NCBI GenBank assembly: GCA_001940645.1
Contig: MDVS01000145.1
Span: forward strand, 1-24,324
Reading direction: 5' to 3'
Source of the DNA: Candidatus Heimdallarchaeota archaeon LC_3
GTDB taxonomy: Archaea > Asgardarchaeota > Heimdallarchaeia > Hodarchaeales > LC-3
DNA length: 24,324 nt
The notes under the pieces are model-generated. The model was given only the letters and a program-made list of their open reading frames with translations, was not told the DNA's origin and ran no database searches. Shown in pieces: positions 3,392 to 23,626 of this stretch (position 1 is the first letter of the stretch; each line of letters starts with the position of its first letter). Position numbers and translations under genes: made by a program.

Positions 3392-5521
3392 ATGAGTTTC
3401 AGGGAAATAGATACATATATCAGCTTAAGTAAGAGCGATGATAAGAAAGATAGGAGAAATGCAACTAATACTCTTCCCAATCTCGTAGAAGATTTAGACT
3501 CTTCATCCGAGTCTGTGGATAAAGCAGAAGGGGTGTTAAAAGTTCTAGAGAATCTAGAAAATGATCAAGATGCTAGAACAGCAAAAAATGCGAGAAATGG
3601 ATCAGAAAAAGTTCGTAATCATATTGAAAGAATGAAAAGAACTGAAGAATCTGATTCAGGAACAACGAGAGCAAGTTCAAGCGTAGAAATAAGTTCAGCA
3701 CTTTCATATGAGGTAAAAGAATCTGTTAGAGGAACAATAAGTTATGAGGGCGAACTGAAAGATATTGAAACGTCGGGATCTCTAGTAATAAGAAACTTAG
3801 GAAGTGTAGACCGCGTATTCGATATTAATTTTGCATTTGAAAAAGGATCAAGTGACTTAGAAGAGCAGTACCATATTAATGAAATTCAACCTGGTGAATC
3901 ATGGAAAAAAGATTATTCGTATTCTTGGGAAGGGGGTGAATCATCACCACTCAACTTCCGTGAAACCATTGATACCTTTCCAGACACAGAAGAATCTTCT
4001 AATGTTTTGGTTTTTGGTCGTGTGATGCAAACATTACTCAAATATCATTTCGAGTCCAATAAAAATTTGGATAAGATAAAAATGACAAAAAACCTTCCTT
4101 CTGGCTTTTCTGATGTTACTATTCAATCAAGTTCAGCAGGAACACCATCTTTGACAGATGATACAATTGAATGGGATCTAACTAATGTTAAGGAAGGAGA
4201 AACAGGTGAATTAGTATTAACAGGGTCTTTTGATGTGAATAATCTTGAGGAAATATCAACTGGTAATGTAGAAGTTGTTTTTGACTCGTCAGATCAATTA
4301 TTTTCATCTGCACAACTAAATGAAGAAGATGATAAACGTACTGGCTCAACAAGAAGTAATTATTATGTGGAATCAACAGAAAGGGAAGAACAACCAGATT
4401 ATTGGGATTCAAAATTTTTCTATAACAATAAATCTGAATTTTCAATCAAAATTCTAGCTTTGAAAATCTATGATGATGATAACGAATACTACCAAATTTC
4501 AGAACCAATCATAATTGAATCTGGTTCGGAATGGGAAAGCGAGTCTTGGGAATCTTTTAGCGGGACTCAACCCACATTCGCAAAAGATGTACAAATTAGT
4601 ATTGGCAGCGGTGTTTCTATTAATTCAGAAGCCTCATTAGCTTTAGAGGAAACAAAACTAGTTGTTGCCAATATTGAAGGAGATAAAAAGTATGTCGACG
4701 CCGATGGTGAAGAAATAACTGTTGTAAGATCTTTCAGAGAAACAGAAGTACCCGCTTACCTTTATATTAAAAATATAGGAGCAGTTGAGTATGATAAACT
4801 TGAAATCTTAGATACTGTTCCTGCCCATTTCTTACCAACTAATGAAGAATCGATATCAATAACATATATAGACCCTGATGGCAATGAAGAAGAACTAGTA
4901 GATCCACAATTTGAATTTAGTTATGAGCCTATGGATGACAACCCAGATGTTGAACATGTTGGGAAATTTCTAATAACAAAAAATTGTGCACCAGAAGGAG
5001 TATTCAAAATTAACTATTCCCCAAGGGCTGTTAAACCTCAACCAGACTTTGAATACGTATCAACAACTAAAATAGAAGCAACATTAGTTGAACAAGCCCC
5101 ACCCTTAGAATTAGAGTTAGTTGACACTGCTCCTAAACTCACTGTAATTCATGAAAGAAGAAAACTATCTGTTGGTAAAACAGTACTTCCAGGTAGTTCT
5201 AAAGCTGAATATGAAATCATTCTACATTTTAAAAACCGTGGTAGTCATGATTTGAAAGATGTTGTTTTAAAAGATTTTATTCCTGATGACTTCAATAGAT
5301 CAACTGAAGAAATCACTATTGAAAGTGATGGAGAAAAAAACTCTCTTGATTTAGAAGCAAGTGTTACTCCAGCAACTATTCAGGATGAAGCAGGTGATTT
5401 GTTGGAATGGATTTTTGAAGAAGTTAAAAAAGACAGTGAATTAGTAATAATATACACTATTAGTGGAAAAGATCCAGATGATGTATATCGTGCTTCAAGA
5501 GCTCAAATAACAGTAGCCTAG
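3392..5521 (+). CDS. large DUF11-like beta-sandwich repeat protein, no signal peptide
   Basis: This is a 709-residue acidic protein of unknown function. Residues 1-90 are hydrophilic and rich in Lys, Glu and Asn, probably helical or coiled coil. From about 100 onward it is beta-rich, with recurring units of the form 'yeV-x-I-x-N-x-G-x-hydrophobic-x-V-x-D-x-hydrophobic-P': one near 129-150 (SLVIRNLGSVDRVFDI), one near 450-485 (YLYIKNIGAVEYDKLEILD) and one near 598-635 (HFKNRGSHDLKDVVLKDF). This resembles the DUF11/CARDB-type beta-sandwich modules of archaeal surface and adhesion proteins. There is no N-terminal signal peptide and no C-terminal membrane anchor, so it is probably cytoplasmic or exported another way. 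It stands alone, with its own TATA box and a T-rich tail. Confidence 0.88.
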   Translation: MSFREIDTYISLSKSDDKKDRRNATNTLPNLVEDLDSSSESVDKAEGVLKVLENLENDQDARTAKNARNGSEKVRNHIERMKRTEESDSGTTRASSSVEISSALSYEVKESVRGTISYEGELKDIETSGSLVIRNLGSVDRVFDINFAFEKGSSDLEEQYHINEIQPGESWKKDYSYSWEGGESSPLNFRETIDTFPDTEESSNVLVFGRVMQTLLKYHFESNKNLDKIKMTKNLPSGFSDVTIQSSSAGTPSLTDDTIEWDLTNVKEGETGELVLTGSFDVNNLEEISTGNVEVVFDSSDQLFSSAQLNEEDDKRTGSTRSNYYVESTEREEQPDYWDSKFFYNNKSEFSIKILALKIYDDDNEYYQISEPIIIESGSEWESESWESFSGTQPTFAKDVQISIGSGVSINSEASLALEETKLVVANIEGDKKYVDADGEEITVVRSFRETEVPAYLYIKNIGAVEYDKLEILDTVPAHFLPTNEESISITYIDPDGNEEELVDPQFEFSYEPMDDNPDVEHVGKFLITKNCAPEGVFKINYSPRAVKPQPDFEYVSTTKIEATLVEQAPPLELELVDTAPKLTVIHERRKLSVGKTVLPGSSKAEYEIILHFKNRGSHDLKDVVLKDFIPDDFNRSTEEITIESDGEKNSLDLEASVTPATIQDEAGDLLEWIFEEVKKDSELVIIYTISGKDPDDVYRASRAQITVA

Positions 5522-5536
5522 AAAAGTATGAAAATA

Positions 5537-5556
5537 TTTTTTTCTTCATTTTATCT
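5537..5556 (+). terminator. T-rich terminator after the repeat protein gene
   Basis: A T7 tract followed by C and more T-rich sequence starts about 16 nt after the stop codon at 5521, consistent with archaeal poly-T termination. Confidence 0.4.
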
Positions 5557-5678
5557 AAAATAGCAAGAAAACCATTTCCTTAAGGTGATGGATGAATTAC
5601 TATCATTTTTTTTTAAAAAAATTCCTTTTCAATGAAGTGTGGGTAAATTTTTTAAAGAATTTAAGGAGAAAAATATTT

Positions 5679-6035
5679 GTCGGTTAACCTTCCGACCTAA
5701 ATAAAAAACGGATGTTCTAAGATACGAACTGAACATTTGCACAATAAAAAGTGCTTGCTTGTAACTAACATACAAGTAGATCACTGATACGTTACCATTA
5801 CTAATCCGATTGCTGATTAGAATGTTGTAAGAGGATCATATCATCCATTGTTACTGAAACAAACATGGTAACACTGAGATAACAAAAATAGCTCAAAAAA
5901 AATTTTCGGTTCAAGAGAAATCTGAGGAAATAGTGGTCGTGTGAATCGACCTGAACGAATAAGATTGGTTAGTTTCAAAAAACTAATACAATAGCAATCG
6001 TTTGAAACCACGTCATTCAAGTCGTGGTATTTCAC
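5679..6035 (+). ncRNA. candidate structured RNA with loop pseudoknot, ending in an IS605-like hairpin
   Basis: There is no convincing protein here, but many helices that fit together: GTCGG/CCGAC (5679-5696); TGTTC/GAACA (5713-5735); GCAC/GTGC (5739-5754); CTTGT/ACAAG (5758-5776); an 8-bp closing stem GTTACCAT/ATGGTAAC (5791-5798 with 5865-5872) enclosing CTAATC/GATTAG (5801-5820); TTCgGTTCA/TGAACGAA (5905-5959) enclosing GGTCG/CGACC (5935-5951); ATTG-TTAGTT/AACTAA-CAAT (5964-5992); and a final TGAAACCACG/CGTGGtaTTTCA hairpin (6003-6034). The entire 8-nt loop 5807-5814 (CGATTGCT) is perfectly complementary to 5993-6000 (AGCAATCG), a potential pseudoknot. A TATA-like ATTTTTTAAA (about 5647-5656) would start RNA close to 5679, and a T9 tract at 6066-6074 could end it. 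The strand is inferred from these signals. I could not match it to RNase P or SRP RNA. Confidence 0.5.
6003..6035 (+). mobile_element. IS200/IS605-like right-end hairpin, possibly a solo end
   Basis: The sequence GAAACCACG-loop-CGTGGTATTTCAC closely follows the usual right end of IS200/IS605 (tnpB-carrying) elements, whose form from general knowledge is GAAGC-CC..., a short loop containing TTCA or TTTA, the complementary arm, then TAGTTCAC. The arms pair as TGAAA+CCACG with CGTGG+TTTCA, with TA bulged on the 3' side, as in such ends. I see no tnpA or tnpB nearby and no intact TnpB C-terminus in the upstream frames. It could be a decayed element, a PATE/MITE-like derivative, or a domesticated omega-RNA-like end. 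This is family-pattern recognition, not a database match. Confidence 0.4.
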
Positions 6036-6065
6036 TTATTTTCTATATTTAATATATCCTTATAC

Positions 6066-6074
6066 TTTTTTTTT
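6066..6074 (+). terminator. T9 tract downstream of the candidate RNA
   Basis: Nine consecutive T lie about 30 nt past the last hairpin of the candidate structured RNA. This is suitable as an archaeal poly-T terminator for a transcript running left to right. Confidence 0.35.
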
Positions 6075-6164
6075 AAAATTTGAAAATAAAATTAATAAAC
6101 TATCACTTTGTTCAACTCTTGTTCGTCTTCTCTAATGTTAGTTGAAGATAGGATGTATAAATAA

Positions 6165-6308
6165 TTGGCAGAACTCCTTCAGCATGTATGTGCCTGGTGT
6201 AACCAGGTTCTTGTGAAAAAATCCATTTCTTGTGAAGAATGTACTCCAGATAACGAACATTACTGTACTCCAGATTGTTTGTTAGAACATACTTCAGCAT
6301 CCCATTGA
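6165..6308 (+). CDS. 47-residue cysteine-rich mini-protein, probable zinc binder
   Basis: A short open frame begins at TTG immediately after an in-frame TAA (6162-6164). It encodes a protein with CAWC (Cys9, Cys12), CEEC (Cys23, Cys26) and CTPDC (Cys34, Cys38) followed by His42. This spacing strongly suggests one or two zinc sites (zinc-ribbon, treble-clef or MYND-like), and six cysteines in 47 residues is far above chance for this AT-rich DNA. No recognised family can be named. The start is the weak point: TTG is the only start in frame, and a TATA-like TGTATAAATA sits directly against it (6155-6162). If that is the promoter, the start would fall within the gene, so it may be a truncated remnant. 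It lies downstream of the candidate structured RNA. Confidence 0.5.
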   Translation: MAELLQHVCAWCNQVLVKKSISCEECTPDNEHYCTPDCLLEHTSASH

Positions 6309-6468
6309 AAATAGCACTCTTTGGTTTTTTGATTATCAATCAGTTGTTAAAATCATCAAAAGGTTTGGATTTTAGTGTTATTTCCTATTTTTGAGTCTAT
6401 AAAATATATTATATAGCATAAATTAATATAAATGAATACAAAAAATATTTTATTTTGGCTTGTTAAAA

Positions 6469-7918: not shown

Positions 7919-8500
7919 TTGGAGATCAAATATATAATTAAAGAGGATGAAAATTATATAATTGTAACAAAAAAGATTAAAAGATATCTAGCACCGTTTT
8001 TTGCTATTATAGGTATCATTTCTATTTCCATATTCTTTCTTGGGTATCAATCTATTTTCAATCAAGTTGATTCAGTCAATTTTTTTGGTATTACAGTACT
8101 TCTTTCAATTTTTACTAGTTTTATTGATTTATTTTTAGTTATTAGTGGGGGATTTCTAATGGGGTCAATTTACTTTTGCTGTTGGACAGAAGGATGGGAA
8201 ATTAATAAGAAGAAAAATGGTAAACCTTCAGAAATACTTTTTTTTTGGGGATTTGCAAATTTGAAAAAAACTACTAAGTTCCTAACAGCTGAAATTGATT
8301 CTATTTATGTTCAGAAAATACCTCTTGATGAATTAGAAACATTTTTTATATACAAACTTCAGTTTCTCGCTAAGATTACAGAAGAAAAAGCATTTTTCCA
8401 AAAAACTTTGTTAATTGATTCTGATTATAATCAAATTCATTCATTAGGGCTAAAAACATTATCTTTACTACAAATTGAACTCAAATTACTCTATAAATAA
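7919..8500 (+). CDS. two-helix membrane protein with a cytoplasmic PH-like tail, unknown function
   Basis: The 193-residue protein starts with TTG at 7919, preceded by AAGAGG at a short distance. The N-terminal 22 residues are charged. Two long hydrophobic segments follow (about 24-46 and 56-85), and then a C-terminal soluble domain of about 105 residues that is beta-rich and ends in a helix (SLGLKTLSLLQIELKLLYK). A TM hairpin plus a soluble beta-rich domain recalls bPH/YdbT-type membrane proteins, but I cannot confirm that. It stands 32 nt after the zinc protein in the same direction, so it may be in the same operon. Confidence 0.7.
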   Translation: MEIKYIIKEDENYIIVTKKIKRYLAPFFAIIGIISISIFFLGYQSIFNQVDSVNFFGITVLLSIFTSFIDLFLVISGGFLMGSIYFCCWTEGWEINKKKNGKPSEILFFWGFANLKKTTKFLTAEIDSIYVQKIPLDELETFFIYKLQFLAKITEEKAFFQKTLLIDSDYNQIHSLGLKTLSLLQIELKLLYK

Positions 8501-8595: not shown

Positions 8596-10041
8596 ATGAG
8601 TACAACTTATGAAAAACCAGTTATTGAAACGAATCACTCTAATACACCTACTATTTTATTTTTAATAGTAGCCTTGCTTCTATATGGATGGGGATTCTTT
8701 TCCACAATTTTATTTTTTATAGATGCTAAAAATCAGCCTTTAATTGATGAAATTTCTGCAGGAATTACAATTACATTAGGATTATCAGTTGGATTAGCCC
8801 CCTTTATATTGTTATTCTTAATATTATTCATTCCCCTTATGATAGTATTGAGTTACTTACTTGTTAAGATGATAGCAAAATTTGCTCAAGAAGTGACTAT
8901 TATTGTCTCCGTTTTATTCCCAATTATTCTTATCGGAGTTGGTATCTTAATTTTTACATTGTCAACTGAATCATTTATGATCGCCCTGATAATTGGGGGC
9001 ATTGGTGCTATACTTCTTCTTATTGTTATCTGGAAATTCCAAAGTCTTAAACGAGCAGGGAAGTTTGTTGAATTCTCAGCTCAACTTGTCTTAGACGAGA
9101 AAGCTGTCTTGTGGATGCCTATATTACTAGGCCTTTTCACTATGTTTTCTGGATTCTTCCTTCTCTTTGGATTTGCTGAAATTAATTCACTTTTTATGGA
9201 ATCCACACCCGAAGGTGACCAATTAAGCGCACCAGGTATGATATTGGCATTTTTATTTTCTTACTTTTATTTAATAATATATTTTGGAATATATTATTCA
9301 TTGAATGCCGGAGTCATTTCCTATGCACTTGATTGGTATAGAGGACTAGATCCTGATATAAATTCGGCTGCTAAAGACGTACGTCAAATGTTACCAATTA
9401 TATTAACCTTTGCCTTTGCTACAGCCACGATAAAAATGATTATGCAACTAGTAATGTCCGCAGGTAGACAATCCGGAACAAGAAGTGGTAGAGGTGGAAA
9501 TCAAACGGCTTCCTTAGTATTTGTTGCAATATCAGGGTTTATCATTAGTATTATCGGAGCCATTTGGCAATTCATCAATTATTTCACGTTAGTAGCAATA
9601 ATTGAAAATAAACAGGGATTGAAAGATTCTATAAAGGATTCTGCAAAAACACGATGGAATTCTTTCCTTGATGTATTAGTGGGCGATACTGGATTTGGCC
9701 TCGCTATGTTCATTTTCTTTGTGATTAATTCTTTGATTTGGTTTGTTGTAGGATTTGGATTAGGATTTATAATATTTCCAAATGGGGTAGCTGGGTTGAG
9801 TTGGACAGTTTTTGCTATTATTTTTGGAATTGTTTTCATTTTTCTTGGATCTTTTCCATATAATATTGTTACTGCACCCATGAGAATAGCCTTTACCTCA
9901 TTTCTTTATGCTTATGCTAAAGATTCTCTTGAAGGATTTCAAAAACCTTCTAAACTACCTATGGAATTAACAAATGAATTCAAACAACTACAAAAAGCAC
10001 GTGATAAGAGAAAAATGCGTGATCCCACCCAATATTTCTAA
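8596..10041 (+). CDS. DUF6159-like polytopic membrane protein
   Basis: This is a 481-residue integral membrane protein with about ten or eleven hydrophobic segments. The first ~145 residues add four TM helices. The remainder resembles the archaeal and bacterial DUF6159 family: a QSLKRAGKFVEFSAQLVLDE amphipathic lead-in before the membrane core, a YYSLNAGVISYALDWYRG-DPDINSAAKDVRQ loop after a TM pair, and VAIIENKQGLKDSIKDSAKTRW before LVGDTGFGLAMF. A Gly/Arg-rich loop (GTRSGRGGN) is also present. The C-terminus is cytoplasmic and basic. Function is unknown; such proteins are discussed as membrane-organising or transport components. ATG at 8596 is the only sensible start. It is convergent with the next gene. 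Confidence 0.8.
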   Translation: MSTTYEKPVIETNHSNTPTILFLIVALLLYGWGFFSTILFFIDAKNQPLIDEISAGITITLGLSVGLAPFILLFLILFIPLMIVLSYLLVKMIAKFAQEVTIIVSVLFPIILIGVGILIFTLSTESFMIALIIGGIGAILLLIVIWKFQSLKRAGKFVEFSAQLVLDEKAVLWMPILLGLFTMFSGFFLLFGFAEINSLFMESTPEGDQLSAPGMILAFLFSYFYLIIYFGIYYSLNAGVISYALDWYRGLDPDINSAAKDVRQMLPIILTFAFATATIKMIMQLVMSAGRQSGTRSGRGGNQTASLVFVAISGFIISIIGAIWQFINYFTLVAIIENKQGLKDSIKDSAKTRWNSFLDVLVGDTGFGLAMFIFFVINSLIWFVVGFGLGFIIFPNGVAGLSWTVFAIIFGIVFIFLGSFPYNIVTAPMRIAFTSFLYAYAKDSLEGFQKPSKLPMELTNEFKQLQKARDKRKMRDPTQYF

Positions 10042-23381: not shown

Positions 23382-23387
23382 GAAAAA

Positions 23388-23612
23388 TTGAATTTATTAG
23401 AATCAGATTTTGATCTTTTGGGACTTAAAATTGAGGATCATTTCCCTGCTAAAGAACTCAATGAAGATGGAATACCTATGAAAAGTCGTGAATGTGGAAA
23501 TAACGAATTTAATCTAGTGGAGCATGTTGAAAATCGATGGACATATGAATGCAAAAAATGTCAATGTAGAAATGTTGTACTAAAAGAAATGATTCCATCG
23601 ATTGAAGGGTAA
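23388..23612 (+). CDS. small zinc-ribbon protein
   Basis: The 74-residue protein starts with TTG at 23388, 6 nt after the TPR gene. The first ~35 residues are acidic. Residues 36-62 form a probable zinc ribbon: CGNNEFNL (one Cys), then WTYECKKCQCRNVV with three further cysteines. This is the usual knuckle spacing, though the first knuckle shows a single cysteine plus polar residues. The role is unknown; such ribbons often bind nucleic acid or partner proteins. It is convergent with the winged-helix gene (14-nt gap). Confidence 0.75.
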   Translation: MNLLESDFDLLGLKIEDHFPAKELNEDGIPMKSRECGNNEFNLVEHVENRWTYECKKCQCRNVVLKEMIPSIEG

Positions 23613-23626
23613 AAAATTAACATTTG

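Follow-up and report, generated by a model that had tools for sequence, protein, structure and literature searches.

A candidate gene for a structured noncoding RNA of about 390 nucleotides in an Asgard archaeon

Introduction

The locus described here raises the question of whether a G+C-rich stretch of DNA lying between two protein genes encodes an RNA with a structure of its own and, if so, of what kind that RNA would be. The window, meaning the whole stretch of DNA analyzed, comprises 24,324 nucleotides of Candidatus Heimdallarchaeota archaeon LC_3 (contig MDVS01000145.1). A previous reading made from the letters alone (the sequence-only reading) had proposed that positions 5679 to 6035 specify an undescribed structured RNA in which a hairpin loop forms an 8-bp pseudoknot. 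To our knowledge, stand-alone large structured RNAs are rare beyond the housekeeping set. Archaeal RNase P RNA is a free-standing molecule of about 300-400 nt, with two domains and long-range pairing, and archaeal SRP RNA, also free-standing, has about 300 nt. According to the accessible text of one report, long G+C-rich intergenic regions have been targeted to find bacterial RNA classes (PMC8723152).

Results

The candidate lies in a gene-free gap of 643 nt that extends from the upstream stop at 5521 to the next plausible start at 6165, both neighbours being on the + strand. Genes of the window include those of a Ras-family GTPase, a queuosine-synthesis-like protein, a dihydrouridine synthase and a TENA/zinc-finger protein, the nearest relative of the last one belonging to a Candidatus Hodarchaeales archaeon (78% identity). 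Such relatives of the neighbouring proteins place the window in or near Hodarchaeales. The gene upstream of the RNA (3392-5521) encodes a 709-amino-acid protein that has no Pfam match; the scoring of 7994 candidates gave five relatives besides itself, of which two bear the name Hodarchaeales (74% and 56%) and two distant ones carry PF01345. The RNA is separated from the TENA gene by a 47-amino-acid cysteine-rich, zinc-finger-like open reading frame (ORF; 6165-6308), which gives weak Pfam matches only.

Gaps were defined as stretches between ORFs counted as genes. The G+C content of 5679-6035 is 34.7%, compared with 22.9% in 4050 nt of other gaps (z 5.3) or with 22.6% when the comparison uses 2698 nt of gaps (z 5.5); other gaps of at least 30 nt reach 30.2% at most, and the whole window has 29.4%. 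A raised G+C content, 30%, is also seen in the gap 23382-23626.

The interval is bounded by signals that resemble those of a transcription unit. The TATA-like box and the T9 tract on which the sequence-only reading had placed the transcript ends are both present. A BRE/TATA-like element at 5643-5656 (+ strand) agrees with 11 of 13 positions of an archaeal consensus, and the start predicted from it, at about 5679, coincides with the base at which the first stem begins. The element is supportive only, since 75 of the 24,311 + strand positions score as well; in 5560-6170 there are four such positions, counting this one. The window contains three T9 runs on the + strand: one at 6066-6074, a possible transcription terminator, one at 5606-5614, between the gene of the 709-amino-acid protein and the RNA, and one within an ORF (8238-8246). 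The first two belong to a repeat of 18 nt with 89% identity between its copies, the second of which spans 6061-6078, and behind the tract at 6066-6074 another TATA-like site (6086-6099, + strand) suits the next ORF. Runs of A and T also form inverted repeats around the unit, one perfect over 11 nt (5611-5621/6068-6078) and one of 79% identity (5522-5540/6051-6069). Taken together, the G+C island, the promoter-like site and the T9 tracts point to a separate + strand transcription unit of about 390 nt. TATA-like sites and T runs are common in such DNA.

The + strand reading is no more than favoured, because the − strand also carries TATA-like sites of equal score, with predicted starts at 6060, 6047 and 6023, together with both terminator-like hairpins of 5522-6320 (5951-5935 and 5696-5679, each with a T-rich tail; 0.2 expected). 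No terminator-like hairpin was found on the + strand of that region.

The stability of the fold exceeds what chance would give. On the + strand, 5679-6045 has a minimum free energy (MFE) of −90.3 kcal/mol, and the mean of shuffled sequences is −67.5 (100 shuffles) or −66.4 (1000 dinucleotide shuffles), with z about −4.6. Equally good folding of shuffled sequence had been named as one of the outcomes that would speak against a structured RNA, and none of the 100 or of the 1000 shuffles (0 of 1100 in all) was as stable as the native sequence. The reverse strand folds less well (z −2.1, 4 of 100 shuffles as stable), which favours the + strand; an RNA read from the reverse strand is less likely on this ground, but the terminator-like hairpins and the three TATA-like sites still point there. 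A coarse scan of the window, with 20 shuffles per piece, was carried out as a control on 340-nt pieces taken at 70 positions from either strand, and the resulting 140 pieces had a mean z of −0.28 (sd 1.11). The piece 5686-6025 (+ strand) ranked second, with z −3.44. The first, 9086-9425 (z −4.38), lies within the protein gene of ORF 8596-10041 and, since this coding piece has the better z, the fold is strong but not unique evidence. ORF 8596-10041 has a match to a choline transporter below the Pfam cut-off.

The anatomy of the predicted RNA was drawn from the MFE structure and partition function of 5679-6075 (+ strand), in which the helices of the sequence-only reading reappear among a total of 16 helical segments; a mean pair probability of at least 0.9 is reached by 10 of these. 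The structured body (5679-6045) would begin with a 5' hairpin (5679-5696) formed by GTCGG and CCGAC around an 8-nt loop, with a mean pair probability of 1.0. It is followed by the 5' strand of a helix predicted to close the whole RNA (5709-5720, partner 6049-6060), whose pairs 5710-5715/6054-6059 have a probability of 0.95 and whose weaker extension, 5718-5720/6049-6051, has 0.55. Two domains would be enclosed by this helix. Domain A (5726-5912) is closed by a stem of 12 pairs (5726-5738/5900-5912, probability 0.92) and holds hairpins at 5739-5754, 5756-5778, 5779-5837 and 5843-5880, with inner helices of probability 0.58 to 1.0, the lowest value being that of 5843-5880. Domain B (5923-6038) has a closing stem (5923-5931/6029-6038) of probability just 0.53, and its hairpins 5935-5951, 5964-5992 and the terminal 6007-6028 have probabilities of 0.94-0.99; the second of them is lengthened by the helix 5953-5958/5998-6003. 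A further arm-to-arm complementarity, 11 nt at 91%, links 5759-5769 with 5968-5978 and could compete with hairpin 5964-5992.

Within 5779-5837 of domain A, the hairpin 5796-5824 carries the 8-nt loop 5807-5814 (CGATTGCT), for which a pseudoknot with 5993-6000 (AGCAATCG) had been proposed, both on the + strand. The complementarity is exact over 8 bp. A hairpin-loop stretch of at least 8 nt that is perfectly complementary to a segment beyond its own hairpin also arose in 64 of 1000 shuffles; the number fell to 13 of 1000 when the partner had to be mostly unpaired, a criterion set with the knowledge that native 5998-6000 is paired in the MFE structure. The loop pairing is thus only moderately improbable by chance, at about 1 to 6%, and the pseudoknot is a fair hypothesis. 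The duplex alone would contribute −9.8 kcal/mol, pseudoknot penalty excluded, and freeing both strands costs 5.0 kcal/mol because the helix 5953-5958/5998-6003, which strand 5993-6000 overlaps, has to be broken. Hence, the pairing is possible and not clearly favoured. Moreover, a fully paired loop of 8 nt is close to the geometric limit known for kissing loops. Of the proposed pseudoknot, therefore, the exact complement stands, and its significance is lowered by the chance rate of 13 to 64 per 1000 shuffles and by the rival helix.

No known RNA family accounts for the interval. Rfam searches, one of the checks recommended beforehand, gave no match at the gathering threshold in the whole window. 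With E values up to 10, three matches with chance-level names were obtained in 5660-6080 (best E 4.6), none of them at E ≤ 1, and four in 5500-6200, of which the best (E 0.41) lies at 5609-5653, outside the RNA. The sole RNase P match in 5660-6080 was to the Plasmodium model, with E 4.6 and 15.2 bits where the gathering score is 100, and archaeal and bacterial RNase P models gave no match up to E = 10 in either region. Word searches bore out the earlier remark that RNase P CR-V and the SRP helix 8 motifs are missing: ACAGAA and GAGGAAAGTC, core words of RNase P RNA (CR-I/CR-V, helix P4), are found on neither strand; two simple searches with helix 8 words were empty, and no SRP family appeared in the Rfam searches. 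Relaxed words are present, namely GTAAGAG at 5827, ACANAA at 5882 and GGAAA at 5926, short matches to conserved words of RNase P RNA whose order would be that of a circularly permuted molecule. Between 5882-5905 and 5920-5945 there are at most four consecutive pairs, so that helix P4 cannot form from these words, and an RNase P RNA in permuted order was rejected for lack of P4. ARAGORN found no tRNA or tmRNA gene in the window.

The most enriched tetranucleotide of 5679-6045 is CTGA, present seven times on the + strand (1.6 expected) and not at all on the − strand; 2 of 2000 shuffles reach the count for that word, and with all words considered the family-wise value becomes 0.024. In archaeal C/D RNAs, CUGA serves as the D box. 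The exact C box word TGATGA is absent from 5679-6045, so a cluster of C/D box sRNAs of the ordinary guide type was rejected in spite of the seven CTGA. The CTGA copies might mark a repeated protein site.

Six ORFs of at least 20 amino acids (20 to 64) overlap 5679-6045. Pfam gave no match up to E = 1 for four of the six, and no candidate in the protein collection shares three 5-residue words with the 64-amino-acid ORF at 5841-6035. The interval as coding sequence was discarded on these grounds.

Relatives of the RNA were sought by using the downstream protein as an anchor, which provided 66 loci, one of them Asgard-titled. In the Asgard-titled contig, where the downstream protein is 51% identical and the neighbours differ, the counterpart of the RNA is absent (best match 15 nt, E 0.88); none of the 66 loci matches the interval better than E 0.25. 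In a second archaeal group, Ras-like GTPase matches occur in 55 of 61 genomes, up to 34 per genome; the downstream protein occurs in 25 of 150, at most 51% identical, and actin matches in 1 of 10 tested. By the last two observations, these archaea would be Thermoplasmatota-like rather than Asgard. When 389 such genomes were compared with the RNA, at most two candidates being scored per genome, 233 matched at E ≤ 1 and two at E ≤ 0.001. The best match, a hairpin of 36 nt (89%), has E 2.9e-5 for a single genome and about 0.01 over the 389, and it sits where two convergent ORFs leave a gap of 56 nt; flanking matches to the RNA are of 11 nt at most, and the site has no Rfam match. The second-best is a 49-nt piece (82%, E 1.6e-4), and both were taken for probable chance matches. 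Two phage records matched at E 0.4, no plasmid did so at E up to 1, and viral contigs gave neither a match to six exact patterns nor a relative of two protein anchors. There is no second copy in the window, the best other match being of 25 nt (E 0.025). These missing relatives say little, because almost none of the DNA covered by the search is Asgard. Among the matches listed in the open-licence literature, the accessible texts mention no such RNA in Hodarchaeales.

Discussion

A structured RNA gene at this locus is well supported by the z value of the fold, the G+C island, the bounding signals and the lack of protein relatives and of Rfam matches. The explanation towards which we lean, with moderate confidence, is a free-standing gene for a structured noncoding RNA of about 390 nt, in an Asgard archaeon near Hodarchaeales, whose domains A and B dock and which acts in trans in a ribonucleoprotein. 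The transcription, strand, docking, action in trans and protein partners of this RNA are inferred.

Other explanations can be weighed against the same data. The interval could act in cis, for instance as a riboswitch-like leader of the 47-amino-acid ORF at 6165 or as the 3' UTR of the gene of the 709-amino-acid protein. Its location in the 643-nt gap that separates two + strand reading frames (stop at 5521, start at 6165) and the presence of arms with alternative partners (5759-5769 with 5968-5978), as in a switch, agree with such a role, which is nevertheless improbable: T9 tracts flank the unit on both sides, a TATA-like site (6086-6099) after the T9 could serve the downstream ORF separately, and no Rfam riboswitch is matched up to E = 10. 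A lack of any RNA function, the interval being a mobile-element relic or a set of chance palindromes in A+T-rich DNA, is about equally unlikely. It would explain why relatives were not found, the Asgard-titled contig having no such element near the downstream gene, and it can draw on the inverted repeats of A/T runs around the unit and on the z of −4.38 reached by the coding piece 9086-9425. Yet none of 1000 shuffles is as stable, the G+C island has matching bounding signals, the repeats around the unit consist of low-complexity A/T runs, and the window has no second copy, its best other match being the one of 25 nt at E 0.025.

Even less probable is a housekeeping RNA that has strongly diverged or been rearranged, in the first place RNase P RNA and with less likelihood SRP RNA. 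The archaeal RNase P RNA (RF00373) resembles the candidate in being a stand-alone RNA of similar size (about 370-390 nt here), with two domains and long-range pairing, to which the short RNase P-like words at 5827, 5882 and 5926 and their circularly permuted order could be added. The archaeal SRP RNA likewise stands alone and is of roughly similar size. In contrast to the former, the interval has no match to the archaeal model to E = 10, lacks the core words ACAGAA and GAGGAAAGTC on both strands and does not allow P4 between 5882-5905 and 5920-5945, and the Plasmodium model at E 4.6 is the sole RNase P match. Unlike the latter, it is branched and not rod-like, and it matches no SRP family.

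Of the sequence-only reading, the structured RNA gene is thus upheld by the fold, the G+C island and the bounding signals, and its undescribed status depends on one sequence. An undescribed class fits the finding that no Rfam family is matched at E ≤ 1 within 5660-6080, and from a single sequence such a class is not separable from a strongly diverged known RNA. As far as the accessible texts of the surveys go, candidate RNAs found by genome surveys (PMC2864571, PMC6429828, PMC8723152) likewise come from long, gene-free, G+C-richer stretches that fold well, but those surveys compare genomes and the interval is one sequence. A bolder proposal, which we regard as rather doubtful, is that the RNA belongs to a new class, large, multi-domain and pseudoknotted, whose members would occur in Hodarchaeales or related Asgard archaea alone and form the core of an undescribed ribonucleoprotein, with the seven strand-specific CUGA copies as a repeated protein-binding element.

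The free-standing RNA gene that we prefer would operate as follows. Transcription would start at about 5679 and run rightward as far as the T9 tract (6066-6074), yielding some 390 nt. The transcript would fold into the 5' hairpin and domains A (5726-5912) and B (5923-6038), joined by the end helix 5710-5715/6054-6059. The loop 5807-5814 of domain A might then dock on strand 5993-6000 of domain B and produce a compact fold, and the compact RNA would act in trans as part of a ribonucleoprotein, as a scaffold or guide and possibly as a catalyst.

A placement of Asgard archaea, and of Hodarchaeales among them, nearest to eukaryotes has been proposed by some analyses and is disputed, according to the accessible text of PMC12395588. 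An Asgard RNA without an Rfam match could either extend a known RNA beyond its current models or represent an RNA machine specific to a lineage close to where eukaryotes are proposed to branch.
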